DNA from: Clostridia bacterium
GTDB lineage: Bacteria > Bacillota > Clostridia > Christensenellales > UBA1242
Assembly (NCBI GenBank): GCA_022793335.1
Contig: JAAWCQ010000006.1
Coordinates: forward strand, 1-44,241
Length of the DNA stretch: 44,241 nucleotides
Direction: 5' to 3'
In this document: one piece after another, positions 2,179-20,679 of the stretch
Layout of the letters: every line of letters begins with the position of its first letter
How positions within the stretch are numbered: the first letter of the stretch is position 1
Notes under the pieces: generated by a model
Told to the model about the DNA's origin: nothing
Database searches by the model: none
The model's input: only the letters and a program-made list of their open reading frames with translations
Made by a program: the position numbers and the translations under genes

Positions 2179-2658
2179 ATGGAAATTAAAGAAAATTATT
2201 CTGGCTTTCAGCCCTTTATAGACGAAAATAGTGAAATCTTGATTTTGGGAAGTTTTCCTTCAGTTAAATCTCGCCAAAACAATTTTTATTATGGGAATTC
2301 AAGAAATCGTTTTTGGAAGGTTTTAGCTTCCGCTTTTAATGAAGAATGTCCTCAAACAATTGAAGAAAAGAAAATGCTGTGTCAAAGACATAAAATTGCA
2401 CTTTGGGATGTTTTTTGGCAAAGTGATTTAAAGGGCTCTAGTGACCAGACATTGTCAAAATCAAACATTGTTTTAAGCGACCTGAATGGCTTAATAAAAC
2501 GATATCCAAACATTAAAAAAATTCTTTGTAATGGAGCACTTGCTTATGACACACTCACAAAGAATTTTAATTTCAATATTGAAATAAAAAAACTCCACTC
2601 AACAAGCCCAGCATGCGTGAATTTTAATCTTGATGAGTGGATAACAAATTTAAAATAA
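2179..2658 (+). CDS. Hypoxanthine (deoxyinosine)-DNA glycosylase
   Basis: Likely removes hypoxanthine (deaminated adenine) from DNA at the start of base-excision repair. The 159-residue protein fits the UDG-superfamily family 6 enzymes: near the N-terminus it has ILILGSFPSVKSR followed by FYYGNSRNRFWKVL, where the Asn-containing motif is the expected catalytic region. LWDVFWQSD follows in the middle, and LHSTSPA near the C-terminus occupies the place of the family's HPLPSTSPA-like loop. It stands alone, divergent from cmk. The start is fixed by a consensus promoter whose -10 box is 7 nt from the ATG, implying a leaderless message. The family assignment comes from motif recognition; mismatch-uracil (MUG-like) specificity is an alternative. 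Confidence 0.85.
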   Translation: MEIKENYSGFQPFIDENSEILILGSFPSVKSRQNNFYYGNSRNRFWKVLASAFNEECPQTIEEKKMLCQRHKIALWDVFWQSDLKGSSDQTLSKSNIVLSDLNGLIKRYPNIKKILCNGALAYDTLTKNFNFNIEIKKLHSTSPACVNFNLDEWITNLK

Positions 2659-2685
2659 ATTTATTAAAACAAGATTTATAGCGTT

Positions 2686-3069
2686 TCAATTTTCAAATAA
2701 AGCACTATAAATTTCTTTTGTCGTATTTATTGCCTTAAATAGACTTGGAAGGCATATTTTTGTAACATTTTCATCATCAATAGAAGCTATTAACGAGCCA
2801 ACATTGACAGCAATTTCATTGAGTGATTTGATAAGCTCAAAATTGTTTGGATAGTCATAATCATTTGTTGAACCATCATTTTCACCAAGCTCTTCGATTT
2901 CAATAAAAGTATCTTTCATAAGTGCCCTAACAAGCACCTGTCCTTCCTTACTAAACTTTTGACAATCTTCAACATTTCCATCATTTAAAGCCATTTCACT
3001 TTTAATAAAAGCTTTATTCGCATTTGAAGAAGCCTCTAAAAGCTCTGCATACAACGCCAAATTTTCCAT
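2686..3069 (-). CDS. Small hypothetical protein
   Basis: A 127-residue acidic soluble protein, predicted mainly helical, with no recognised domain. It has no signal peptide or membrane segment. GAGGTG lies 6 nt before the ATG, so translation is well supported. It is preceded by its own promoter and sits downstream of the large surface protein on the same strand. The helical, acidic composition resembles small chaperone-like proteins, but no specific family can be claimed. Confidence 0.75.
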   Translation of the reverse strand: MENLALYAELLEASSNANKAFIKSEMALNDGNVEDCQKFSKEGQVLVRALMKDTFIEIEELGENDGSTNDYDYPNNFELIKSLNEIAVNVGSLIASIDDENVTKICLPSLFKAINTTKEIYSALFEN

Positions 3070-6870: not shown

Positions 6871-7833
6871 CTATTCTATCACAATTGGATTGTAAATCAA
6901 ATAAGCATTTTCGCCAGACTGTTGCAAATTATTCAGCACCATAAGTGCTTTGAGATAATCTTCTTCGTCAAGCCCGTAATCTTTTATGAGTTTTTCAATA
7001 GTAAAATTCCCAAAAGATAAATTTTCTCTTTCCCCAGTTTCCAAATATTTGCAAGCAGCAGCAAAATATTCATCTTGCATTTCATAAAATATTGGAGCAA
7101 GCATTGAACATTCAATATTAGAAAATTTGCTGTTTATTGTAAATAAAGCATTAAAATCAACAAACTCCATCTTTCTGTCAATGTCGTTCATAAGATAGTC
7201 TTTGCTGTCTAAAGCCAAAATAAGATTTCTTTCAAAATCCATTACCTTCTTGACCATTTGTGCTTGTGCATTATCTTTATTTTCTTCAAGTTGAGCATTT
7301 AAATCAACTGTCAACATATCAAGATATTCTTGTGCTTTTTCAAATTCGCCATTTTTTCTTAACAAATCAACGCATTGCAATAAAATATCACCATCTTCAT
7401 CTCTAAATGCAATGTCAATCAACAAATTTAAAGCTTTTTTTCGATAAAGCTTTGTATTTTCTTCATCTTCGGCGTCTTCAAAAGTCCAACTTGCACCTAA
7501 ATACATTAAAGCTGCAGATTTTTGTTTTCCTGCCCTTTCATTTATCATTGCCGACAACAAATATTTTTTAACACTGTCAGACACCTGTGAATTTAACACC
7601 TCTTGATATGGTTGACTTTTGATAAATTCCTCATCAACGGCGCTTTGTTCTGATATGTCAAAATCGCAATAATGGCAGAATGGGCATTCTTGAATTGGTA
7701 TATTGACCGAGCCAAAATCACATCTTAGGTCAAGGTGTCTTTCTGCGCCAATTGTATTTGTGCTGTAATAAACATCTTGCACGCTTTCTTGTCCGCACAC
7801 AGCACACTTAAGCGAAACTTTTTCTATCTTCAT
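6871..7833 (-). CDS. DUF2225 zinc-binding protein
   Basis: A 320-residue cytoplasmic protein of unknown function. The N-terminus carries two zinc-knuckle pairs, CAVCGQ (about residue 10) and CPFCHYC (about residue 54), separated by the conserved RHLDLRCDFGS segment that marks the DUF2225 family. The remainder is helical with tetratricopeptide-like spacing, which suggests a protein-interaction scaffold. AAGGAG lies 5 nt before the ATG. It follows the ABC-ATPase/GT8 gene by 44 nt on the same strand with no convincing terminator between, so some read-through from the polysaccharide genes is possible. Confidence 0.85.
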   Translation of the reverse strand: MKIEKVSLKCAVCGQESVQDVYYSTNTIGAERHLDLRCDFGSVNIPIQECPFCHYCDFDISEQSAVDEEFIKSQPYQEVLNSQVSDSVKKYLLSAMINERAGKQKSAALMYLGASWTFEDAEDEENTKLYRKKALNLLIDIAFRDEDGDILLQCVDLLRKNGEFEKAQEYLDMLTVDLNAQLEENKDNAQAQMVKKVMDFERNLILALDSKDYLMNDIDRKMEFVDFNALFTINSKFSNIECSMLAPIFYEMQDEYFAAACKYLETGERENLSFGNFTIEKLIKDYGLDEEDYLKALMVLNNLQQSGENAYLIYNPIVIE

Positions 7834-7877
7834 ATTTACTCCTTATGACAGCTTAAAAAACTTTCAAACTCTATCAA

Positions 7878-9722
7878 TTATTTTTTATTTTTAATTCTGT
7901 AAAATACATAACCTATTTCACATTTAATTTCGTGCAAGGCATTTTTAAAGCCAACATCTCTCCAGCTTCTGAAAAACTTCCTTAAAAGTCTGAATGGAAA
8001 AGTGAAAAATCTTAAAAATTTATTTCTTTTCTTTTTTGGCTTTTTTGTTTTTTTGACCTCTGTTTTTGGATTTTCTTTGATTATTTCATCATTTACAGGG
8101 CTATTTTGCGCATATTTCCAAAAATATTCAGCAAGTGGCAAGTTTGCGCCCTTTGGTTTCCAAGGTTTAACTTCTGTTGTATAATGAATTACACTTCCTA
8201 TTTTTTTATCAAGATTTTCATCAAAAAGGTCTATATTACCCCATTGTAAATTCCACTTTTCTGACAAAAGTTTAATATTATTTTTAAGCACTATATTTAG
8301 CGCGTCTTGGTCAGGGCACATTAAAACTGAATGATTTCTAAGTAGTTTTAAGCATTTCTCTTTTATATCTTGGTGAAAGAATTTTTTAGTGTCTATTAAA
8401 AGCACGCCTGAATTGATATAACCCTCTGGCTCTACCTTCAACTCCTTTCTGATATAATATTTAATCCTATCTTTCTCTATAGTGTCTCTCACGCCAGCTA
8501 TGATTTCATTCTCAACAAGTTCTATTTCCAAAAGCTCTTTAATATCGCCCGTCACAACCAAATCACAATCAAGATAAATCACTTTATCATATTGATATAA
8601 CACCTCTGGTATCAACCATCTATAAAACATTTGATTTGAATAATGAGCCCTTGAATACAACATTTCCTTTGAAATAAGATTGCCTACATTGACACATTCA
8701 ACACTGAGGTTATCTTTGCTCATTCCCTCAAAAAGTTCTAAATCAGAAGGCAAGATTTCCTCATCATGAAAGATGAAAACTTTGTATAAAACATTTTCTG
8801 CTTGAGTGCGGTTTTCATATATAGACTGAATTGTCACGGCTGCATATTTTGCATAATTGTGATCAGTTGCTAAAACAATTGGCACCACTTTTTTTTCTTT
8901 TTCCTCTTCATTTTTTGTTTCGATAAGCTCTGCTGGCTTCTTCTTGCCATTTTCACTTACCTCTTTGCAATATTTCAAGTATTCATCAACAACCTGACTG
9001 CAGTCGCCATACATTTGCATTTTGTTATCTTTTATCCAAAGTGCCTTATGACATAGTTTTTTCACCTCAGGCATATTATGAGAAACATAAATAAGCGTTG
9101 TGCCGCCTTTAAGCAATTCTTCAATTTTCTTATGACATTTTTGTCTAAAATTGATATCTCCAACCGACAAAATCTCATCAACGAGCAATATATCAGGTTT
9201 TACATCGACAGCAATGGCAAAACCAAGCCTTGACAGCATTCCTGAAGAAAAATTTTTAATTGGCACATTCATTGAATCTTCAAGCTCGGCAAATTCAACA
9301 ATAGAGTCATATTTTTCCTTCATTTGCTTTCGTGAATATCCAAGTATTGCTCCATTTAAAAACACATTTTCTTTTGCAGTTGACTCCATGTCAAAACCTG
9401 CCCCAAGATTTAAAAGAGGTGCTATTGTTCCACCCAGTCTTATTTCACCCTCAGTTGCTTCCAAAACACCTGCTATTGTCTTTAAAAGAGATGATTTTCC
9501 ACTTCCATTCAAGCCAATTAAAGCAAGACTCTCCCCCTTTTTCACTTCAAAAGATATATCATTAAGCACCCAAAAGGCGTTATATCTAAGTTTACCTTTA
9601 AAAAGTTTGACAAAAAACTCCTTAAGAGTGTCAACCCTCTCGGTAGGCTTATTATATTTTAAACTTACATTTTCAACTTCAATTAAGTTTTCTTTATTGT
9701 GCACATCTGAAATTCTGGCCAT
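7878..9722 (-). CDS. Polysaccharide-export ABC ATPase fused to a GT8 glycosyltransferase
   Basis: A 614-residue two-part protein. Residues 1-255 are a Wzt/TagH-type ATPase: P-loop GLNGSGKS (70-77), signature SSGM (159-162), Walker B ILLVDE (179-183) and switch His 215. A lysine/glutamate-rich linker (257-280) leads to a family-8 glycosyltransferase (about 281-540) with LATDHNYAKYA, the metal-binding DCD at 385-387, YINSGVLLID, DQDALN and the terminal HYTTEVKPW. The last 70 residues are strongly basic and amphipathic, probably lying on the membrane. With the permease next to it, it should power export of a lipid-linked polymer while a sugar is added to it or its precursor. In known Wzt proteins the C-terminal domain is usually a glycan-binding fold, so a transferase there is unusual. 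AAGGA lies upstream of the ATG. Confidence 0.93.
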   Translation of the reverse strand: MARISDVHNKENLIEVENVSLKYNKPTERVDTLKEFFVKLFKGKLRYNAFWVLNDISFEVKKGESLALIGLNGSGKSSLLKTIAGVLEATEGEIRLGGTIAPLLNLGAGFDMESTAKENVFLNGAILGYSRKQMKEKYDSIVEFAELEDSMNVPIKNFSSGMLSRLGFAIAVDVKPDILLVDEILSVGDINFRQKCHKKIEELLKGGTTLIYVSHNMPEVKKLCHKALWIKDNKMQMYGDCSQVVDEYLKYCKEVSENGKKKPAELIETKNEEEKEKKVVPIVLATDHNYAKYAAVTIQSIYENRTQAENVLYKVFIFHDEEILPSDLELFEGMSKDNLSVECVNVGNLISKEMLYSRAHYSNQMFYRWLIPEVLYQYDKVIYLDCDLVVTGDIKELLEIELVENEIIAGVRDTIEKDRIKYYIRKELKVEPEGYINSGVLLIDTKKFFHQDIKEKCLKLLRNHSVLMCPDQDALNIVLKNNIKLLSEKWNLQWGNIDLFDENLDKKIGSVIHYTTEVKPWKPKGANLPLAEYFWKYAQNSPVNDEIIKENPKTEVKKTKKPKKKRNKFLRFFTFPFRLLRKFFRSWRDVGFKNALHEIKCEIGYVFYRIKNKK

Positions 9723-9743
9723 ACTATTCCTTTTTATTATAAA

Positions 9744-10571
9744 TTAAATATACAAAATATATTTTTTTCTGTTTATTGCAAAGAACAAATATCCAACAGC
9801 GAGCATGCCTAAAGCCCAACCATACATTATAAGGTAAGTTATTCCACTTGGCACAACTCCCCACTGAACAATATCTCTAAATGCAGTTACATAAACTGTC
9901 ATTGGGTTTAGGTTGATTATTTTGACTGCAACTGCACTGTCTATTGCTGTCGCGGTGTAAAACAAAGGCGTCAAATATTGCCAAAGGGTAACTCCGACGG
10001 TGTAGATATGTTTAATGTCTCTGAAAAATACATACAAGCTTGCCAAAATGAAACTTAGGCCCAGCGAGAACAAAATCAAAGCTGGCAAAATTGTCACTGT
10101 CATGACAAGAGTCCAGTGAAACTCTTGTTTAACAATAAGCATTACAATGATTAGAGAGATAAAAGAAAACGCAAAGTTTACTAGTGCTGTAAATGTATTT
10201 GAAAGAGGAAATATTGAATAAGAAATTCTTGTCTTTTTTATAAGGCCAGAATTGGTAACCAAACAAGTAAGGGATTGTGTTGTAATTTGTCTCATAACAT
10301 TGAAGATTATATTTCCGCACAAAAGATAGACTGGATAGTTGCCTGTCCCTTTTCCAAATAAATTTGAAAATATAAAAGAAAGCACAAGCATGTTTAAAAG
10401 TGGGTTTAAAATGGTCCACAAAACACCAAGTATAGACCCCCTATATTGCGCCTTAAAATTCTTTTTAACCATTGCTCCTAAAACATAGGAGTCTTTTTTC
10501 ATATTATCAAGATAGACTCTTCTTCTTTCTTTATAAGGAAGCTTTGTCTTTAAATTTTTAGTTTTTTCCAT
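9744..10571 (-). CDS. Polysaccharide-export ABC permease (Wzm/TagG type)
   Basis: The membrane half of an ABC-2 exporter that moves undecaprenyl-linked polymers (O-antigen, teichoic acid or similar) to the outer face of the membrane. The 275-residue protein has a basic amphipathic N-terminus (KKDSYVLGAMVKKNFKAQYRGSILGVLWTILNPLLNMLVL, cited by its key motif YRGSxLGxLW) and about six transmembrane helices, which is the family pattern. It is the first gene of its transcript, 21 nt upstream of its ATPase partner. AAGGA is close to the ATG. Its promoter lies at 10617-10645. Confidence 0.93.
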   Translation of the reverse strand: MEKTKNLKTKLPYKERRRVYLDNMKKDSYVLGAMVKKNFKAQYRGSILGVLWTILNPLLNMLVLSFIFSNLFGKGTGNYPVYLLCGNIIFNVMRQITTQSLTCLVTNSGLIKKTRISYSIFPLSNTFTALVNFAFSFISLIIVMLIVKQEFHWTLVMTVTILPALILFSLGLSFILASLYVFFRDIKHIYTVGVTLWQYLTPLFYTATAIDSAVAVKIINLNPMTVYVTAFRDIVQWGVVPSGITYLIMYGWALGMLAVGYLFFAINRKKYILYI

Positions 10572-10616
10572 CCTTTCCTTGCCTATTAGTTTTTTCTATA
10601 AACTTTTTCCATCTTA

Positions 10617-10645
10617 AATATACAAATTAAAATGGTTTTAGTCAA
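10617..10645 (-). promoter_or_regulatory. Promoter of the export operon
   Basis: On the minus strand, TTGACT (10640-10645), a 17-nt spacer and TATATT (10617-10622), about 46 nt from the permease start codon. Confidence 0.65.
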
Positions 10646-10726
10646 CCTTTTAATATATTTAAATATTAAAATAGCTTTTTTAATTTAAATGAAATTGAAT
10701 TTTAATAGATGATTGTATTTTAAAAT

Positions 10727-11869
10727 TTAAATCAATCCATTCTCTTTATAAATATTTTCAAGCTGTTTTTTCACAGATTCAAGTGAATAATTCTCTGACT
10801 TTTCTTTGTTGTAACTTCCCATTTTCTGACACAAATCATTGTCATCCATAAGTTTTTCAATCGCTTCCATTTGAGAAGCCATATCAAGCGGCTCAGTCAA
10901 AAAACCGCCTTTATCTTCATCAATAAGGTCTTTATTTCCCCTAACATTTGATGAAACAACTGGAAGAGCGAAATGCATTGCTTCAATAATTCCCATTGTA
11001 AGTCCTTCATGAAAAGACTGATGATAAAAGATGTCAGAGATCTGCATTATCCTGTCAATATCTTTTCGATAGCCTAAAAATAATGTCAAATCTTGAATAT
11101 TAAGCTCTTTTGCAAGTGATTTCATATTTTCAAGCTCGGCACCCGTGCCACAAAGAATATATTTGAAATCTCTTCTTTTTTTAGATATTCGAGCAACGCA
11201 TTCAAGCATAGTTTTATAATTTTTGCGAGGAATAAACTCGGACACTGATAAAAGCACTTTTTCATTTTCATCTATACCAAGTTTTTTTCGAAAACTCTCT
11301 TTATCAAATTTCTCATCAGAATATTTGGCTACATCAAGCCCGATGCCATTTATCTTATATTTTTCTTTTGCCTTCCATTTTGCACTTGCCACAAAATCTT
11401 CATCATTCATAGTAATCAAAATGTCAGTATATCTTGCCATATATTTCTCAGCTGACTTAAATATCAAATTTTTGAGTTTGCTGTTTCCTTTAAAAAAGAA
11501 AAAGCCGTGGGCTGTGTAAATCACTGGGATATGATATTTTTTGCCTACAAATCGCCCCAAAAATCCACCAGTTGGTTGCTGACAATATATTAAATCATAT
11601 TTATTTTGCTTGTGCAGTTTTTTAATTGCTTTATATGCCCTATAATTTGTCAAATTGATAGGCTTTCTTTTCATATCAATTTCAATCATATTAAAGTTGA
11701 ATTTATTTTGAAGTTCTTCAAACCAAAAGCCAGTTTTTGAGCAGACACAATCCACCTTTGCCCCATAAGCTGTTAAATCTTGAATGTGTGGAATTAAAAA
11801 TTGCCAAATCATATTATCAGTTGTGCAAAGCAAAAGAATTTTGCTGTTATTCAATTTTAAGTCTTTCAT
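10727..11869 (-). CDS. GT4-family glycosyltransferase
   Basis: A 380-residue cytoplasmic glycosyltransferase with the GT-B fold, predicted to add a hexose or related sugar to a lipid-linked intermediate at the membrane. Residues about 12-190 are the N-terminal GT4 domain (ILLLCTTDN, YCQQPTGGFLGR, TAHGFFFF), and about 200-370 the glycosyltransferase group 1 domain (LLSVSEFIPRKNYKTML, LCGTGAELENMKSLAKEL, FLGYRKDI). The E-x7-E nucleotide-sugar motif is visible as EGLTMGIIE in SFHEGLTMGIIEAM. The sequence resembles EpsD/WbnK-like enzymes of capsule clusters. It has its own promoter, which is nearly identical to that of the priming sugar transferase on the other strand. AAGGA lies 6 nt before the ATG. 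Confidence 0.92.
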   Translation of the reverse strand: MKDLKLNNSKILLLCTTDNMIWQFLIPHIQDLTAYGAKVDCVCSKTGFWFEELQNKFNFNMIEIDMKRKPINLTNYRAYKAIKKLHKQNKYDLIYCQQPTGGFLGRFVGKKYHIPVIYTAHGFFFFKGNSKLKNLIFKSAEKYMARYTDILITMNDEDFVASAKWKAKEKYKINGIGLDVAKYSDEKFDKESFRKKLGIDENEKVLLSVSEFIPRKNYKTMLECVARISKKRRDFKYILCGTGAELENMKSLAKELNIQDLTLFLGYRKDIDRIMQISDIFYHQSFHEGLTMGIIEAMHFALPVVSSNVRGNKDLIDEDKGGFLTEPLDMASQMEAIEKLMDDNDLCQKMGSYNKEKSENYSLESVKKQLENIYKENGLI

Positions 11870-11937
11870 AATCGTCCTTATTTTTTCCTTTTTATTTTAA
11901 GCAATTTCATTTGCTTTAATTAAACATTGCCTTAATT

Positions 11938-11966
11938 ATGATAACATAATCTTTATAATAAAACAA
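11938..11966 (-). promoter_or_regulatory. Glycosyltransferase promoter (twin of 12568-12596)
   Basis: On the minus strand, TTGTTT (11961-11966), a 17-nt spacer and TATCAT (11938-11943) with an extended-minus-10 TG before it. The -10 is embedded in an inverted repeat, ATTATG-TTAT-CATAAT. Over 34 positions, 27 match the promoter of the sugar transferase, which points the other way. Confidence 0.7.
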
Positions 11967-12030
11967 CCCTTTAATTCTATATCAAGAATTTTTATCATAT
12001 TTATATTTAGAGCTCACAAATATTGGCATA

Positions 12031-12068
12031 TTCGACAATTCGTCGTCATCTTTTGATAAAATTCGACA
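12031..12068. promoter_or_regulatory. Two Spo0A-like boxes
   Basis: TTCGACA occurs at 12031-12037 and again at 12062-12068, 31 bp apart. It is the complement of TGTCGAA, the established core of the Spo0A binding site in Bacillus. Both lie upstream of the 12133 gene and between the two outward-facing polysaccharide promoters. Other genes in the window are sporulation-specific, so a Spo0A is expected in this organism; binding here is inferred. Confidence 0.45.
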
Positions 12069-12110
12069 TTTTCTTACTGTTTTTCCTAAACATTTGAAGC
12101 TTGATTTTAA

Positions 12111-12116
12111 TATAAT
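12111..12116 (+). promoter_or_regulatory. -10 box of the 12133 gene
   Basis: A perfect TATAAT, but no good -35 hexamer at normal spacing (AAACAT at 17 nt). This is the arrangement expected of a promoter that needs an activator, and the Spo0A-like boxes are upstream. Confidence 0.4.
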
Positions 12117-12132
12117 GACTATGTGAGGAATT

Positions 12133-12564
12133 ATGAAAAGCAAGAGATTTAAAGACACGATAATTGAAGATTATGCAATAATCAGCAACACAAAAAATTA
12201 TTGCGAATTTTGTCTTTGCCAGTTAAACCTCACAGAAAACGAAACCAAAGAAATCAAATCGCTTTATAATTTTGCTTTAGAGCTTAATAAGACATACAAA
12301 AAGATCATGTTTAGACTGGGGCTTATAGATTTGTCACTAGCTATCTTAGATAGAGATTTTTTACTAGACTTTTGTGACAAAAAAGAGACTTATCTATGGA
12401 ATAAAAGCAACTTTCTTTTAATCTTTAAAAAATATGAAATGAGATTGAAGATGATTGGAAATGACCTCAGTTTAAAGCTTAAAAAGATGGAATTAAACAA
12501 TTTTGAATGTAATTATTTAAACCTTGATAAGCTGTCAAAGCCTGAAAAATCTTTTCGCAGTTAA
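12133..12564 (+). CDS. Small hypothetical protein between the polysaccharide promoters
   Basis: A 143-residue soluble, highly charged, probably helical protein (KKIMFRLGLIDLSLAILDRDF, cited for its helical character) with five cysteines scattered and no metal-binding spacing that I recognise. No known domain is visible. GAGGA lies 4 nt before the ATG. It sits alone between the divergent glycosyltransferase and the sugar transferase and is preceded by two Spo0A-like boxes and a TATAAT. Position and control suggest a regulator or sporulation-linked role in surface polysaccharide production, but sequence gives no direct support. Confidence 0.7.
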   Translation: MKSKRFKDTIIEDYAIISNTKNYCEFCLCQLNLTENETKEIKSLYNFALELNKTYKKIMFRLGLIDLSLAILDRDFLLDFCDKKETYLWNKSNFLLIFKKYEMRLKMIGNDLSLKLKKMELNNFECNYLNLDKLSKPEKSFRS

Positions 12565-12567
12565 TTC

Positions 12568-12596
12568 TTGACTTATTATACAAAGTATGTTATCAT
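12568..12596 (+). promoter_or_regulatory. Sugar-transferase promoter (twin of 11938-11966)
   Basis: TTGACT (12568-12573), a 17-nt spacer and TATCAT (12591-12596), again with an extended-minus-10 TG. The spacer starts with TATTATA and ends with TATGT exactly as in the twin promoter. The predicted start is near 12603, leaving a leader of about 27 nt. Confidence 0.75.
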
Positions 12597-12629
12597 AAAT
12601 CTACATTCACTAAGCAACTCGAGGCAACA

Positions 12630-13397
12630 ATGAAAGGCAGAAAAAAAACACTGTATGAGTGTATTTTTAAAAGATTTTTTGATTTTTGCATATCTTTGTT
12701 GGTACTAATTTTGTTAGCACCATTATTTTTTGTATTATTCATCATTTCAAAATGCGCGCTTGGTGGAAAAGTTATATTCGGGCAATATAGACCTGGCAAA
12801 GACGGAAAATTATTTAAATTATACAAATTTAGAAGCATGACAAACAAAACTGACGAGAACGGAAATCTTCTCCCAGATGAGCAGAGAATTACAAAATATG
12901 GCAAATTCTTAAGAAAATCAAGCCTTGACGAGCTTCCACAACTTTTCAACATTTTAAAGGGCGACATGAGCATAGTTGGCCCAAGACCTAGACTTGTTAA
13001 GGATATGATTTTTTATGATAAAGAAGTCTTGCCCGCTTATAGCAAACGACCTGGTCTTACTGGTGCCTCTCAAGTAGCTGGCGGAAGAAGCGAGGCAAGC
13101 TGGGAAAGCATTTTTGAGGAAGAGCTTAAATACGCAGAAAAAGTCACTTTATGGAAAGATATTAAAATAATTTTCAAAACTATCGGCGTTTTATTTAAAA
13201 CGGACAGCTCTTCAGAAGGCGCAGCTTCAAGCAAACGCGAATATTTTTATTCTGATTATCTCTTACATAACAACAAAATAAGCAAAGAACAATATGCTTT
13301 AGGTCTTGTTATGGCAAACAGCATTATAGATGAAAAAAGCAAGGTTGAATATCAAGAAGTTTTGCATTCAACCGCATCATCTGTTGAAGAAATATAA
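12630..13397 (+). CDS. Undecaprenyl-phosphate sugar-1-phosphate transferase (priming enzyme)
   Basis: Starts surface-polysaccharide synthesis by moving a sugar-phosphate from a UDP-sugar to undecaprenyl phosphate at the inner face of the membrane. The 255-residue protein is a short PglC/EpsL-like form: a basic N-terminus, one hydrophobic re-entrant helix (about residues 18-42) and the catalytic domain with LYKFRSM, the LDELPQLFNILKGDMSIVGPRP block containing the Asp-Glu pair, and RPGLTG. The last 50 residues (from about DSSSEGAASS) form an extra tail ending in a helix, beyond the usual domain end. GAGG lies 5 nt before the ATG. It leads a transcript with the polymerase and the COG2426 gene. 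Confidence 0.93.
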   Translation: MKGRKKTLYECIFKRFFDFCISLLVLILLAPLFFVLFIISKCALGGKVIFGQYRPGKDGKLFKLYKFRSMTNKTDENGNLLPDEQRITKYGKFLRKSSLDELPQLFNILKGDMSIVGPRPRLVKDMIFYDKEVLPAYSKRPGLTGASQVAGGRSEASWESIFEEELKYAEKVTLWKDIKIIFKTIGVLFKTDSSSEGAASSKREYFYSDYLLHNNKISKEQYALGLVMANSIIDEKSKVEYQEVLHSTASSVEEI

Positions 13398-15440: not shown

Positions 15441-15588
15441 ATAACCAAAACATTAAAATTAACATAACTCTCAAACTGGGTTGGAAAGATGACCAGATAA
15501 ACAAGGGTTTTAGTGGTATTTAGAATAAAATAACTCTCAAACATAACGATGAAGAATTTACTGATGACGAAAGTTTTAGTATTATTTT
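15441..15588. CRISPR. Remnant CRISPR array, two spacers, type II-like repeat
   Basis: One intact 36-nt repeat lies at 15507-15542; it begins GTTTTAGTGGTATTT and ends AATAACTCTCAAAC (complement GTTTGAGAGTTATT). A decayed copy at 15441-15476 keeps the 3' half (13 of the last 14 bases identical), and a truncated copy starts at 15573, keeping GTTTTAGT and TATTT of the 5' half. The two intervals between copies, 15477-15506 and 15543-15572, are each exactly 30 nt and unrelated, as expected of spacers. A 36-nt repeat with GTTT...AAAC ends and 30-nt spacers is the geometry of type II systems. No cas gene or clear tracrRNA is seen in the window. The right-hand copy dissolves into the 3' end of the cupin gene. 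Confidence 0.82.
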
Positions 15589-15930
15589 TCATTGCACTAT
15601 TTTGTGTTGATGAGGTGTCCACGCAGGAGAGCAAGACATAGCAACCTTGCAATTTGCTATCCAAAAATATTTTTCACCTTTATCAATTAAAATAGCATCA
15701 CCCTGTTTAAAAGTAATAGTTTCATTTTCTTTATGTATCTCTCCATGACCTTCTATAATATATATCATTTCTTTCACCTCAGTATTGACACAATACGCCC
15801 CTTCTGGATAACGACCATTGATAACAGCTGTAGCAATGTCAATATCTTTGTCTTGAAAATTATATTCAGTTGCAATGCACAATTCACTATTATTAAAAAC
15901 CTGTGCTTCTTCGAATGCTATTTTTTTCAT
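15589..15930 (-). CDS. Cupin-domain protein
   Basis: A 113-residue single-domain cupin, a small beta-barrel. The core is INGRYPEGAYCVNTEVKEMIYIIEGHGEIHKENETITFKQGDAILID, with the E-x-x-Y-I-I-x-G-x-G segment and the G-D-A second motif; the usual metal-binding histidines of motif 1 are largely missing (CVNTEV in place of G-x-H-x-H), so it may bind a ligand rather than a catalytic metal. AAGGGG lies 6 nt before the ATG. The gene begins 21 nt after a truncated PurA-like reading frame, and its 3' end runs into a decayed CRISPR repeat, so it lies in a rearranged segment and may have been acquired. Confidence 0.8.
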   Translation of the reverse strand: MKKIAFEEAQVFNNSELCIATEYNFQDKDIDIATAVINGRYPEGAYCVNTEVKEMIYIIEGHGEIHKENETITFKQGDAILIDKGEKYFWIANCKVAMSCSPAWTPHQHKIVQ

Positions 15931-16801: not shown

Positions 16802-16877
16802 TGGAGCTGATGATGGGACTCGGACCCACGACCTACGCATTACGAATGCATTGCTCTACCAACTGAGCCACATCAGC
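16802..16877 (-). tRNA. tRNA-Thr (anticodon CGU)
   Basis: A 76-nt cloverleaf including an encoded CCA end. Acceptor arms GCTGATG and CATCAGC pair fully; the D arm is GCTC...GAGC; the anticodon stem ATGCA/TGCGT (one G-U) holds the loop TTCGTAA with anticodon CGT, reading ACG threonine codons. The T arm is GTGGG/CCCAT-like around TCCGAGT. It reads codons with ACG, the rarest threonine codon in such an A/T-rich genome, alongside a main tRNA-Thr presumably encoded elsewhere. A perfect 10-bp hairpin lies just before its 5' end (16884-16912). Confidence 0.95.
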
Positions 16878-17036: not shown

Positions 17037-18077
17037 CTAGTGAACAAGTTTAAATGATACTCTCTCAATTTCAAAATCTATATCAAGAATTTCCACTTTA
17101 ATTTTTTCATCAAGTTTTACAATTTCATAGATTTGTTTGTTGTTTGCTTCTGTTGCATTTTTAATATGAAGAAGGCCTGTTGCCCCATTTTCAAGTTTTA
17201 CAATAGCACCAAAATTTAAAATTTTGATGACTTGCCCTTCATAGACCTGCCCTATTTCAAGCTCTTTTATAGCCTTTACTCTTGGGCTTTCTTGCAAAGC
17301 TTTTAAACTTAAAGCAACTTTTTTATTTTCTCTGTCAACTTCAATTACTTTAAAAGAATATTCCTCTCCCTCTTTTATCACATCACTTGGTTGAGAAATG
17401 CGCTCATAACTTAAGTTTGAAATATGAACGAAACAATCAATTCCCCCAACTTCAACAAAAGCGCCATAATTTAAAATCTTTTTTACCTTGCCATTTACTA
17501 TTTTATTTATGAATATTGAACGCCAAAAAAGCTCTTCATTATTTTCTCTTATTTGGTCTTCAAGCATTTTGATACTGGCAATTATCTTCTTTTCATTTCT
17601 ATCAATTTCTGTGACAATTCCCTCATATTGACGGCCAATTGAGCGTCTTGGGTCTCTTACTTTAGAAGACATTTCACTTACAGGAACAACGATTTTATAT
17701 TCCCCCATTTTAGAAATTAAATTGTCTCCTTTAAATTCTGTCACAACAAAGGTAGCTTTACTTCCAAGCTTGAGCTTATTTGCATTTTGAGTTGCAATTA
17801 TTTGATTATCAGCCTGACTTTTTGACACTTCCAAAAGACCATCTTCATTTTTTGAATTTAAAATAATAACCTTAAATCTATCACCAATTTTCAGATTTTC
17901 ATAGTCTTCAACTTCACTGCTTGGAAGGTATGCATCATTTTTTCCACCGATATTAAAAATGCAGCCATCTTCTCTTTTAATCACCACCACCCCATCAAAC
18001 ATTTGTCCTCGAGTGTAAGTAGTAAAAGTTTTGTCAATTGCCTCTAAACTAAATTTATCTTCCATTTTTTCGTCCAT
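17037..18077 (-). CDS. S1-domain RNA-binding protein (ribosomal protein S1-like)
   Basis: A 346-residue protein of four S1 (OB-fold) RNA-binding domains, as in the YpfD/S1-like proteins of Bacillota rather than the six-domain S1 of proteobacteria. Domains start near residues 18 (GQMFDGVVVIKREDGCIFNIG), 103, 187 (GKVKKILNYGAFVEVGGIDCFVHISNLS, the best match) and 272 (GQVYEGQVIKILNFGAIVKLENGATGLLHI). Only the third and fourth keep the full G-x-V...G-A-x-V...G-L-x-H-x-S pattern. It likely binds mRNA at the ribosome or in RNA turnover. AGAGG lies 5 nt before the ATG, and plsC ends 27 nt upstream, so the two form one transcript; this pairing is common in Clostridia. Confidence 0.9.
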   Translation of the reverse strand: MDEKMEDKFSLEAIDKTFTTYTRGQMFDGVVVIKREDGCIFNIGGKNDAYLPSSEVEDYENLKIGDRFKVIILNSKNEDGLLEVSKSQADNQIIATQNANKLKLGSKATFVVTEFKGDNLISKMGEYKIVVPVSEMSSKVRDPRRSIGRQYEGIVTEIDRNEKKIIASIKMLEDQIRENNEELFWRSIFINKIVNGKVKKILNYGAFVEVGGIDCFVHISNLSYERISQPSDVIKEGEEYSFKVIEVDRENKKVALSLKALQESPRVKAIKELEIGQVYEGQVIKILNFGAIVKLENGATGLLHIKNATEANNKQIYEIVKLDEKIKVEILDIDFEIERVSFKLVH

Positions 18078-18104
18078 AAATACCTCTTGTAAAAGTCTAG
18101 CAAA

Positions 18105-18713
18105 TTATCGATTTTTTGTCAAAGAATTTAAAGATAATTCGCGCAACTCATTCATTTTTTCTGCCACTTTTTCGCTAGCAACAGCAAGTTCTTCGCTTGA
18201 CATTTTCTTTCCATAAAACTCATCCAGCTCGAATGGTTTTCCAATATAAATTCTCGTTTTTCTCCAAAACTTTGGTTTCTTTTGAATAAACATTGGAACA
18301 ATTGGCACTTTTGCCTTAGTTGCAAACATGGCAACTCCATGTTTTACTTCCCCAAGCTCCATTCCTTCATTATTATTTCTTGTTCCTTCTGGGAAAATAA
18401 CCAATTTTTTTCCATCTTTAAGCACCTTAAGGCAAGTCTTAATTGCATTTACATCGCTTTTTTCGCGATCAATTTTGATGCAACCAAGCCCCTTATAGAA
18501 AGAAGAAGATGCTTTATTTGAGAAAAGCTCTTTTTTCGCAAGGTAATACTTTTTCTCCCAAGTATGAAGTGCAAGCAAAATCGCATCAAGATTTGAGGTG
18601 TGGTTACTTGCAATTATACAGCTTCCCTTTGGAATATTTTCTTTTCCTATAATCTTTGCAGGATAACTCATTCTTATTGGCATACATAACAACATTTGAT
18701 AAAAATGAAACAT
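18105..18713 (-). CDS. plsC: 1-acyl-sn-glycerol-3-phosphate acyltransferase
   Basis: Acylates lysophosphatidic acid to phosphatidic acid at the membrane, in phospholipid synthesis. The 202-residue protein has the catalytic NHTSNLD (N-H-x4-D) motif near residue 37 and the FPEGTRNNNEG substrate-binding motif near residue 110, then VPIVPMFIQ. The N-terminal 20 residues form a short hydrophobic membrane-contact helix. AAAGGAG lies 9 nt before the ATG. Promoter at 18747-18776; followed by the S1-domain gene. Confidence 0.95.
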   Translation of the reverse strand: MFHFYQMLLCMPIRMSYPAKIIGKENIPKGSCIIASNHTSNLDAILLALHTWEKKYYLAKKELFSNKASSSFYKGLGCIKIDREKSDVNAIKTCLKVLKDGKKLVIFPEGTRNNNEGMELGEVKHGVAMFATKAKVPIVPMFIQKKPKFWRKTRIYIGKPFELDEFYGKKMSSEELAVASEKVAEKMNELRELSLNSLTKNR

Positions 18714-18746
18714 TTTAATTATCTCCTTTTATAGAATTTATATTTT

Positions 18747-18776
18747 ATATTAAATTAAATATTTTTGTTTTGTCAA
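18747..18776 (-). promoter_or_regulatory. plsC promoter
   Basis: On the minus strand, TTGACA (18771-18776), 18-nt spacer, TAATAT (18747-18752). The -35 box overlaps the stop codon of the upstream flavoprotein gene, which separates plsC from the sporulation-rluB transcript. Confidence 0.6.
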
Positions 18777-19975
18777 ATTAAACTCGCAGCTGCAGCATAG
18801 GCTGTTGAAAAAGCGGTTTGCAAATTAAACCCTCCCGTCAAGCAATCTATATCAAGCACCTCGCCAATGAAATATAAACCTTTAACTAGTTTGCTTTCCA
18901 TAGTTTTTGGATTTATTTCTTTTAAATCAACACCACCTGCAGTGATAATACCCGCCTCAATTGGATATAAACCATCAAAGTTTAACGGAAAAGCTTTCAA
19001 CAGGCTTATTATTTTCATTCGCTGCTCTTTAGAAACGGAATTTACCTTTGTTTCACCGTTTATCACAGCCTTGTTCAAAAAGATTTCGACCAAACTTCTT
19101 GGAAGCAAACCTTTTATAATATATGTTAGGTTTTTATTTAAATTTTCTGAAAATTCTCTCAGCAATCTATTTTCAAGTTGCTCTGAATTAAGCGCAGGTT
19201 TAAAGTCCAATTCAAGTTTTACTTCTCTTTCTTGAGAAATATAACTTGAAAGCGAGAGTGCTATTGGACCAGAAATTCCGTCATGGGTAAATAGCATTTC
19301 ACCAAACAAGTTTTTTTTGCCGCCGCTGTAATTTGCAGTTAATTTTACATTTTTAAGTGAAAGACCAGCAAGCTCGCAGCAAAATTTGTCTTTTAATTTA
19401 ATTGGCACCAGAGCGCCTCTTGGTTTTACCACATTATGACCAAGCATTTTTGCGAATTTATAGCCATCACCCTTGCTTCCTGTGGAAGAATAACTCATTC
19501 CTCCTGTTGCAATAATCACCCTGTCAAATTGATATTTGCTATCGCTCGTCAGCACAATAAAAAATGTTTCCTTTTTTTCTATTGCCTTAATCATTTCATT
19601 TAATTTGATTTCGCAATCTCCGCAATGAAGTGTAAGAGCCTTTATAATATCACTTGCTTTATCACTTAGCGGAAAGACACGATTTCCCCGTTCTACTTTA
19701 AGCTTAACGCCTAAACTCTCAAAAAAATTTTGAGTGTCAGAAGGTGAAAACTGATTGATAGCAGACATCATAAATTTGCGACCATTTACCACATTTTCAA
19801 GAAATACCTCTTTTTCACAAGCATTTGTCACATTACATCTGCCCTTGCCAGTAATATAAAGCTTTTTACCGCATTTTTCATTTCCATCAAAAATAGTGAC
19901 AGCATGCCCCTGTTTTGACAAAAAGCCGCCAGCCATTAAACCAGCAGCTCCGCCACCTATAATTGCAATTTTCAT
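18773..19975 (-). CDS. HI0933-family FAD-dependent flavoprotein
   Basis: A 400-residue flavoprotein of the HI0933/YtfB-like (BaiN-type) family, often annotated as an aminoacetone oxidase-like NAD(P)/FAD-dependent oxidoreductase. The N-terminal dinucleotide fold GGGAAGLMAGGFL (residues 7-19) is followed by KKLYITGKGRCNVTNA, and the C-terminus has the FAD-closing segment LYFIGEVLDIDCLTGGFNLQTAFSTAYAA. True substrate is unknown; BaiN is linked to bile-acid reduction, which is only a family precedent. The start ATG overlaps the rluB stop by 4 nt (ATGA), with GAGG just upstream, so it is translationally coupled to rluB. Confidence 0.9.
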   Translation of the reverse strand: MKIAIIGGGAAGLMAGGFLSKQGHAVTIFDGNEKCGKKLYITGKGRCNVTNACEKEVFLENVVNGRKFMMSAINQFSPSDTQNFFESLGVKLKVERGNRVFPLSDKASDIIKALTLHCGDCEIKLNEMIKAIEKKETFFIVLTSDSKYQFDRVIIATGGMSYSSTGSKGDGYKFAKMLGHNVVKPRGALVPIKLKDKFCCELAGLSLKNVKLTANYSGGKKNLFGEMLFTHDGISGPIALSLSSYISQEREVKLELDFKPALNSEQLENRLLREFSENLNKNLTYIIKGLLPRSLVEIFLNKAVINGETKVNSVSKEQRMKIISLLKAFPLNFDGLYPIEAGIITAGGVDLKEINPKTMESKLVKGLYFIGEVLDIDCLTGGFNLQTAFSTAYAAAASLI

Positions 19976-20679
19976 TTTGACCTCACAAGCAAGTTTAACT
20001 CAGCCTCCGTCAAATCTCTAAATTCGCCGCGTTTTAATCCACCGAGTTTAACTCCACCTATTCTCACTCTCTTTAAAAGTTTTATTTGATGACCAATTGC
20101 CTCAAACATGCGTCTTATCTGTCTGTTTTGACCTTCATCAATAATTACAGATAATTTTGTAAAACCATTTTCATAAGAAAGCCATTCCACCCTTGCAGCA
20201 GGCATACGCTCGCCTTCAACAACCACGCCTTTACGCATAACAGCCAACTCGCTTTCTTTGATTTCGCCTTCCACAGTCACTTTATATTCTTTTTCTGTGC
20301 CATACTTTGGATGAGCAACCTTATTTGCAAAGTCGCCATCATTGGTAAGAATTATAAGCCCTTCTGTATCATAATCAAGTCTGCCAATTGAAAATAGCCT
20401 TTCCTCGCAATCTATTAAATCATAAATTGTCTTTCTGCCCTTTTCATCTTTTGCGCTGCAAGCATAACCTTTTGGCTTATTCAGCTTTATATATACAAAA
20501 GAGGAAGGCAATTTGACTGCCTTTCCCTCTACTGTAACTTTATCTTTTTTCTCATCTATTTTAAGCCCCAATGAATCTACTTTTACGCCATTTACCTCGA
20601 CTTTTCCTTCACTGATAAGCTCATCACATTTTCTTCTTGAAGCCACGCCACAGCCAGCTAAAAATTTATTTAATCTCAT
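19972..20679 (-). CDS. rluB: 23S rRNA pseudouridine synthase RluB type
   Basis: Converts a uridine of 23S rRNA (position 2605 in E. coli) to pseudouridine. The 235-residue protein has an S4 RNA-binding domain at residues 1-60 (MRLNKFLAGCGVASRRKCDELI) and a RsuA-family catalytic domain with GRLDYDTEGLIILTNDG containing the catalytic Asp, then EGQNRQIRRMFEAIGHQIKLLKR. It stops one base before the carboxypeptidase start on the upstream side (gap 1 nt), and its stop overlaps the flavoprotein ATG. Location right after dacF/ytfJ is a common Bacillota arrangement. Confidence 0.95.
   Translation of the reverse strand: MRLNKFLAGCGVASRRKCDELISEGKVEVNGVKVDSLGLKIDEKKDKVTVEGKAVKLPSSFVYIKLNKPKGYACSAKDEKGRKTIYDLIDCEERLFSIGRLDYDTEGLIILTNDGDFANKVAHPKYGTEKEYKVTVEGEIKESELAVMRKGVVVEGERMPAARVEWLSYENGFTKLSVIIDEGQNRQIRRMFEAIGHQIKLLKRVRIGGVKLGGLKRGEFRDLTEAELNLLVRSK

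Follow-up and report, generated by a model that had tools for sequence, protein, structure and literature searches.

A probable type II-A CRISPR relic beside a cupin gene in a Clostridia bacterium

Organization of the locus

Examination of a 44,241-nt stretch of DNA from a Clostridia bacterium (hereafter the window), which makes up the entire contig 5 of an assembly of 1,406,037 bases in 17 contigs with an estimated completeness of 95.6%, revealed a short structure with CRISPR geometry adjoining a gene for a small cupin protein. A 36-nt repeat lies between two partial copies of itself at exact steps of 66 nt, and the two 30-nt spacers enclosed are unlike each other. The parts are as follows, the strand of the array being the putative crRNA strand by analogy with congeners:

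15452..15476, minus strand: terminal repeat on the distal (trailer) side of the array, its 3' half in the predicted crRNA direction degenerate
15477..15506, minus strand: spacer 1, 30 nt, matching a phage C5 cytosine methylase gene
15507..15542, minus strand: the sole full-length CRISPR repeat, 36 nt
15543..15572, minus strand: spacer 2, 30 nt, target not found
15573..15587, minus strand: truncated third repeat on the leader side, its first 8 nt exact and 13 of 15 identical, in exact 66-nt register
15589..15930, minus strand: gene for a small cupin protein of 113 aa, with PF07883 and PF05899 above cut-off, a neighbour outside the CRISPR system

Compared in register with the middle repeat, the left copy (15441-15476) is identical at 22 of 36 positions, 21 of them among the 25 of its right part (15452-15476), and the right copy (15573-15608) at 19 of 36, with 13 of 15 over 15573-15587; the better-matching half of each therefore faces the array centre. 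Scanning of the window on both strands, with 88,410 start positions in all, showed only two positions as good as the first 15 bases of the right copy, namely the middle repeat and the copy itself, and the same held for the last 25 bases of the left copy. When the right copy was taken at other lengths, the positions as good numbered 3 for its first 8 bases, 6 for 12, 2 for 16 and 4 for 20. The occurrence of both partial copies at the exact 66-nt register is not due to chance.

An earlier sequence-only reading had described this array of a 36-nt repeat, two flanking copies at 66 nt and two 30-nt intervals, and its sequence and spacing were confirmed. The middle repeat, which that reading called perfect-looking, is indeed of full length but not perfect, since it carries T for C at position 14 and A for C at position 23 relative to the commonest repeat of the congeners. 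Likewise, the match counts agree with the description of each outer copy as keeping its centre-side half, although the unbroken identity of the right copy to the repeat extends over its first 8 bases only (GTTTTAGT).

As expected of a CRISPR array, repeat and spacer lengths are constant, though one repeat copy only is of full length, and one of the two spacers (spacer 1) matches mobile DNA. No leader is present beside the first repeat, where the right flank is the cupin gene and is unlike the leaders of congeners. A search of the window against Rfam returned a tRNA only.

Related arrays in the genus

A DNA search over 61 genomes of the genus combined with a pattern search for the repeat (up to 3 mismatches) over 112, the bacterium's own genome being included in both, identified arrays of the same repeat family in G028, G038, G059, G088 and G093, and more diverged arrays of the same kind in G010, G033 and G051; for 51 genomes coverage was by the pattern search alone, which diverged arrays could have escaped. 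The window repeat differs by 1 mismatch from four repeats of G093, and by 2-3 from the other repeats listed in the pattern search. Typical repeats of the eight arrays are 2-7 mismatches away, with 2 for G028, G038, G059 and G093 and 4-7 for G010, G033 and G051. A degenerate form of the repeat pattern, searched over GTDB genomes in a set that may lack the own genome's records, occurred in 6 stretches on 5 contigs. Two findings named by the sequence-only reading as signs against a CRISPR origin did not materialize: the repeat is not dispersed as single copies, only one being present in its own genome when up to 3 mismatches are allowed, and relatives do not conserve the intervals, neither spacer recurring in 111 congeners at the same tolerance.

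The eight congener loci that were fetched resemble the window in repeat family, 36/30 geometry and, for seven of them, degenerate distal copies. They contain 9 to 23 repeat copies (up to 11 mismatches), mostly at steps of 66 nt, and have adjoining cas genes (for G028 a two-piece Cas9 alone), whereas the window has two spacers and no cas genes. Cas9 and Csn2 are encoded beside the array in seven of the eight, Csn2 scoring over cut-off in all loci except that of G028; type II Cas1 is present in these same seven genomes, and Cas9 in all eight. The operon of G038 (L077) has the order Cas9-Cas1-Cas2-Csn2, with all four proteins over the NCBIfam cut-offs. Because Csn2 is over cut-off in seven of the eight relatives' loci, the putative subtype of the relic is II-A. 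The earlier attribution to type II is thereby supported by congener arrays with Cas9 and Csn2, and it is the relatives that narrow it to II-A.

In the seven csn2-bearing congeners the array adjoins csn2 and, followed in the operon's direction, reads GTTTGAGAG...AAAAC. Since the window repeat has the opposite orientation, its crRNA direction would be that of the minus strand, with the leader side to the right and the distal end to the left.

G009, with one 27-nt match to the repeat, was rejected as an array, as no second copy was present in L085 at up to 11 mismatches. Open reading frames inside arrays, such as those at 6719-7219 of L080, encode repeated FESYVI peptides and are array artefacts rather than genes.

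Boundaries of the relic

In seven of the eight congener arrays, degeneration of one or more distal copies affects the end that is also degenerate in the left copy of the window; L083 (G093) has no such copy. For the II-A CRISPR1 of Streptococcus agalactiae, too, a terminal repeat with degeneration chiefly at the 3' end is described (PMC4466440), a trait shared with the relic although the system described there is complete. Because the distal copies of relatives and of S. agalactiae are degenerate in this way, the left end of the relic looks like a normal array end with an ordinary degenerate terminal repeat.

On the right, nine congener matches to the cupin gene were available, of which five extend to 15589, where the stop codon ends, and three fall short of the gene end. 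The remaining one, in G008, has its stop at the same place and continues in alignment past it to 15571, and the G008 sequence beyond the stop resembles the window and the start of the repeat alike. Judged from these alignments, the cupin gene is whole and undamaged. Given a left copy of ordinary appearance and a cupin gene that ends at the stop of its congeners, only the leader side of the array is cut off, with the break point within 15573-15588. A short shared stretch, such as that in the G008 flank, may have guided the joint. The proposal of the sequence-only reading that both ends had been eroded or recombined is thus not supported, as the left copy has the form of an ordinary degenerate terminal repeat and the cupin gene is undamaged.

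Search for Cas proteins and tracrRNA

The Cas9 model TIGR01865 gave no match in the own genome, against matches in 13 of the 61 genomes (11 over cut-off). Type II Cas1 (TIGR03639, Cas1_NMENI) was equally without a match in the own genome and was over cut-off in 15 of 112 genomes, which indicates that few species of the genus carry a type II system. The Cas9 domain PF18541 had no match in the own genome, but its controls gave none either, and TIGR01865 was used instead. The lack of cas genes with the relic, first noted within the window, thus extends for Cas9 and type II Cas1 to the whole of the 95.6% complete assembly; the completeness estimate leaves about 4% of the genome unaccounted for, where a Cas9 locus could lie.

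The tracrRNA of congeners lies upstream of cas9 and is encoded on the other strand; its core, ATAACATAACGAGTTCAAATA, is identical in the seven aligned loci. This core (up to 3 mismatches) was found in 7 of 112 genomes, each time beside the genome's own cas9, and the genome of the relic is not among them. The pattern catches seven of the eight II-A systems and misses G033 (3 mismatches in the 21-nt core), so that a diverged tracrRNA could escape it; a single change in the core would be enough to fit a tracrRNA to the window repeat. In G033 (L046, G033:C22:12693-14360) the anti-repeat and the array repeat both read CATATC, against CATAAC in both elsewhere, the two having changed together.

At position 23, where the window repeat has A, the 148 repeat copies of the eight congener arrays have C in 145, T in 2 and A in 1, the last being a diverged distal copy of G010. 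The change at position 23 may predate the loss of the system. The base pair at this position is lost in the predicted duplex with the tracrRNA of G028. With seven congener tracrRNAs, predicted duplex energies range from -14.8 to -20.2 kcal/mol for the window repeat, taking the changes at positions 14 and 23 together, and from -21.0 to -26.5 kcal/mol for the common congener repeat. As an argument for decay these energies are weak, because the repeat of G051 with its own tracrRNA is predicted to reach only -16.7 kcal/mol, a value inside the range of the relic.

Candidate targets of the spacers

A peptide pattern derived from one frame of spacer 1 allowed us to retrieve four viral contigs, three of which (L101, L102 and L103) match the spacer at 27 of 30 bases and the fourth (L100) at 25 of 30; a control pattern with the codons of spacer 1 in reverse order found no match. 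Two of the three mismatches to L101, L102 and L103 fall at third codon positions. The matched gene of L101 encodes a C-5 cytosine methylase (PF00145, E 3.3e-63) and lies beside a terminase small subunit (phrog_83). Because spacer 1 falls in a stretch of the methylase that we take to be a conserved motif, the four contigs are regarded as relatives of the source phage and as candidate targets only. In the crRNA direction the flank past the match is TCAATC. The surroundings in L101 (6302-10772) also include an S-adenosylmethionine synthetase and an N6/N4 methylase with a ParB domain, next to the C5 methylase and the terminase small subunit.

Comparison of the two spacers with 133 spacers of congener arrays gave no match beyond 9 nt. 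Searches of GenBank phages by blastn (E up to 10) returned 389 records for spacer 1 and 190 for spacer 2, which were not counted as targets; among the 20 matches listed per spacer, those covering 80-100% of it had 83-89% identity with E values of 0.6 to 8. For spacer 2 no credible target was found, since coding-degenerate patterns in two frames matched no contig and neither did one of two 20-mers; the other 20-mer retrieved four contigs, rejected for their 6-10 mismatches over the 30 bases.

Chromosomal surroundings

To the left of the relic, the open reading frames between 9744 and 15387, including those for a Wzy_C protein and a small export protein, have counterparts that occur together in G038, G010 and G002. 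On the right side, a tRNA-Thr (CGT) at 16802-16877 and four open reading frames from 17037 to 20679 are kept in the seven relatives examined, the tRNA-Thr being seen in six of them, as L090 stops short of it. Where both sides were fetched, in G038 and G010, the left and right blocks are on different contigs and are followed by other genes. The gene content after the tRNA-Thr differs among the relatives examined, and the relic lies in that stretch. Relatives of window genes 2179-3069 are found beyond the tRNA-Thr in G010, at 8.7-11.7 kb of L089, and relatives of window genes 1410-2069 directly after it in G012. Because these relatives of left-end window genes follow the tRNA-Thr much more closely in G010 and G012, the relic, the cupin gene and a gene for 185 aa may all lie within a variable segment after the tRNA-Thr, spanning about 3 to 16.8 kb, rather than at one simple joint between two blocks.

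No relative was found to have an intact array at the site of the relic, and neither the open reading frames of the CRISPR loci nor a tblastx of the window against those loci revealed a common neighbour gene; the sole tblastx match was to the own genome's paralogue of the cupin gene on G000:C9. The loss is therefore not seen directly, since the CRISPR loci of the eight congeners have no flanking gene in common with the window. A kinase-like gene that stands beside cas9 in G038 and G010 had no match in the own genome, in a search run without a positive control.

Origin and significance of the relic

The structure in the window is very probably the distal end of a type II-A array that outlived the loss of its system. 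The original array would have been read on the minus strand, with a leader and a cas operon once to its right. A deletion or rearrangement that broke the array in its third repeat, counted from the distal end (15573-15588), would have taken away the leader-side part of the array, the leader, csn2, cas2, cas1, cas9 and the tracrRNA, and brought the 3' end of the cupin gene to the array stump. What would have remained is two spacers, one full repeat, a normally degenerate terminal repeat and the stump of a repeat. Because there is no leader here and Cas1, Cas9 and tracrRNA were not found in the genome, such a relic would be expected neither to gain spacers nor to cut DNA. A more specific version, in which the array is itself the break point, is possible but rather doubtful: recombination inside a CRISPR repeat, aided by a short GTTTTA-like stretch beside the cupin gene, would have removed the immune system and joined pieces of the chromosome that are apart in relatives. 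Were this version true, the stub would be the scar of the loss.

Other explanations have to be weighed against loss of a II-A system. The idea that the array is an orphan still in use, transcribed and with its crRNAs loaded by a Cas9 from the missing part of the genome or from mobile DNA, draws on the full repeat, a terminal repeat with a usable-looking half, the 27/30 agreement of spacer 1 with phage DNA, predicted pairing with most foreign tracrRNAs near the value for G051 with its own, and a precedent in Enterococcus faecalis, for which a type II orphan array with a repeat identical to that of a complete system is described (PMC4580645). It is nevertheless improbable, as the assembly contains no Cas9, type II Cas1 or matching tracrRNA and no congener-type leader stands alongside; for the same reason the suggestion of the sequence-only reading that a Cas9 elsewhere in the genome might serve the array found no support in the assembly. 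Orphan arrays can also be kept because their spacers target incoming cas genes and so exclude the system, as described for I-F orphan arrays of Escherichia coli (PMC5972030). Here, however, spacer 1 aligned to the eight congener cas operons with 12-13 mismatches at best and spacer 2 with 10-12, against 11-13 and 11-12, respectively, for 20 shuffles of each spacer compared with one operon, and spacer 1 matches a phage methylase instead. This explanation was rejected for the eight operons tested and is very improbable in general. The least credible of all, to the point of being negligible, is that the structure is not CRISPR and reflects a dispersed repeat or a chance similarity; its short length, and nothing more, speaks for this, and it is refuted by the full arrays of the same family in congeners and the single genomic copy, with the exact register also speaking against it.

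Seen as the end of a lost II-A array, the relic is an ordinary case of CRISPR loss, of a kind already known from other bacteria, orphan arrays being described in both PMC4580645 and PMC5972030. A close parallel is the CRISPR2 of E. faecalis, a type II array without cas genes that has the repeat of CRISPR1; in the same account CRISPR1 and CRISPR3 have 36-bp repeats, 30-bp spacers and a degenerate terminal repeat (PMC4580645). In contrast to the truncated stub of the window, for which no partner was found, CRISPR2 occurs with variable spacers in all strains of that study, some of which carry CRISPR1-Cas (PMC4580645). The relic leaves general knowledge of CRISPR unchanged, and its interest is in the clarity of the case, a well-controlled example of CRISPR-Cas loss in a genus with few type II species.

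Another stage of such decay may be represented by G028, which has an array of 22 copies and the tracrRNA core, no type II Cas1, and a Cas9 spread over two frames of 785 and 658 aa. In its locus (L082, G028:C6:22000-41500) the array occupies 7309-8708 and the Cas9 open reading frames 8883-10661 and 10763-13096. This system may be part way to loss, although errors in metagenome-assembled genomes can split a gene. Taken with the relic, G028 suggests stages of decay that could be ordered. In G059 the array (L078, 17000-18940) includes additional diverged copies on the distal side of a 435-nt gap, as if an older array end had persisted.
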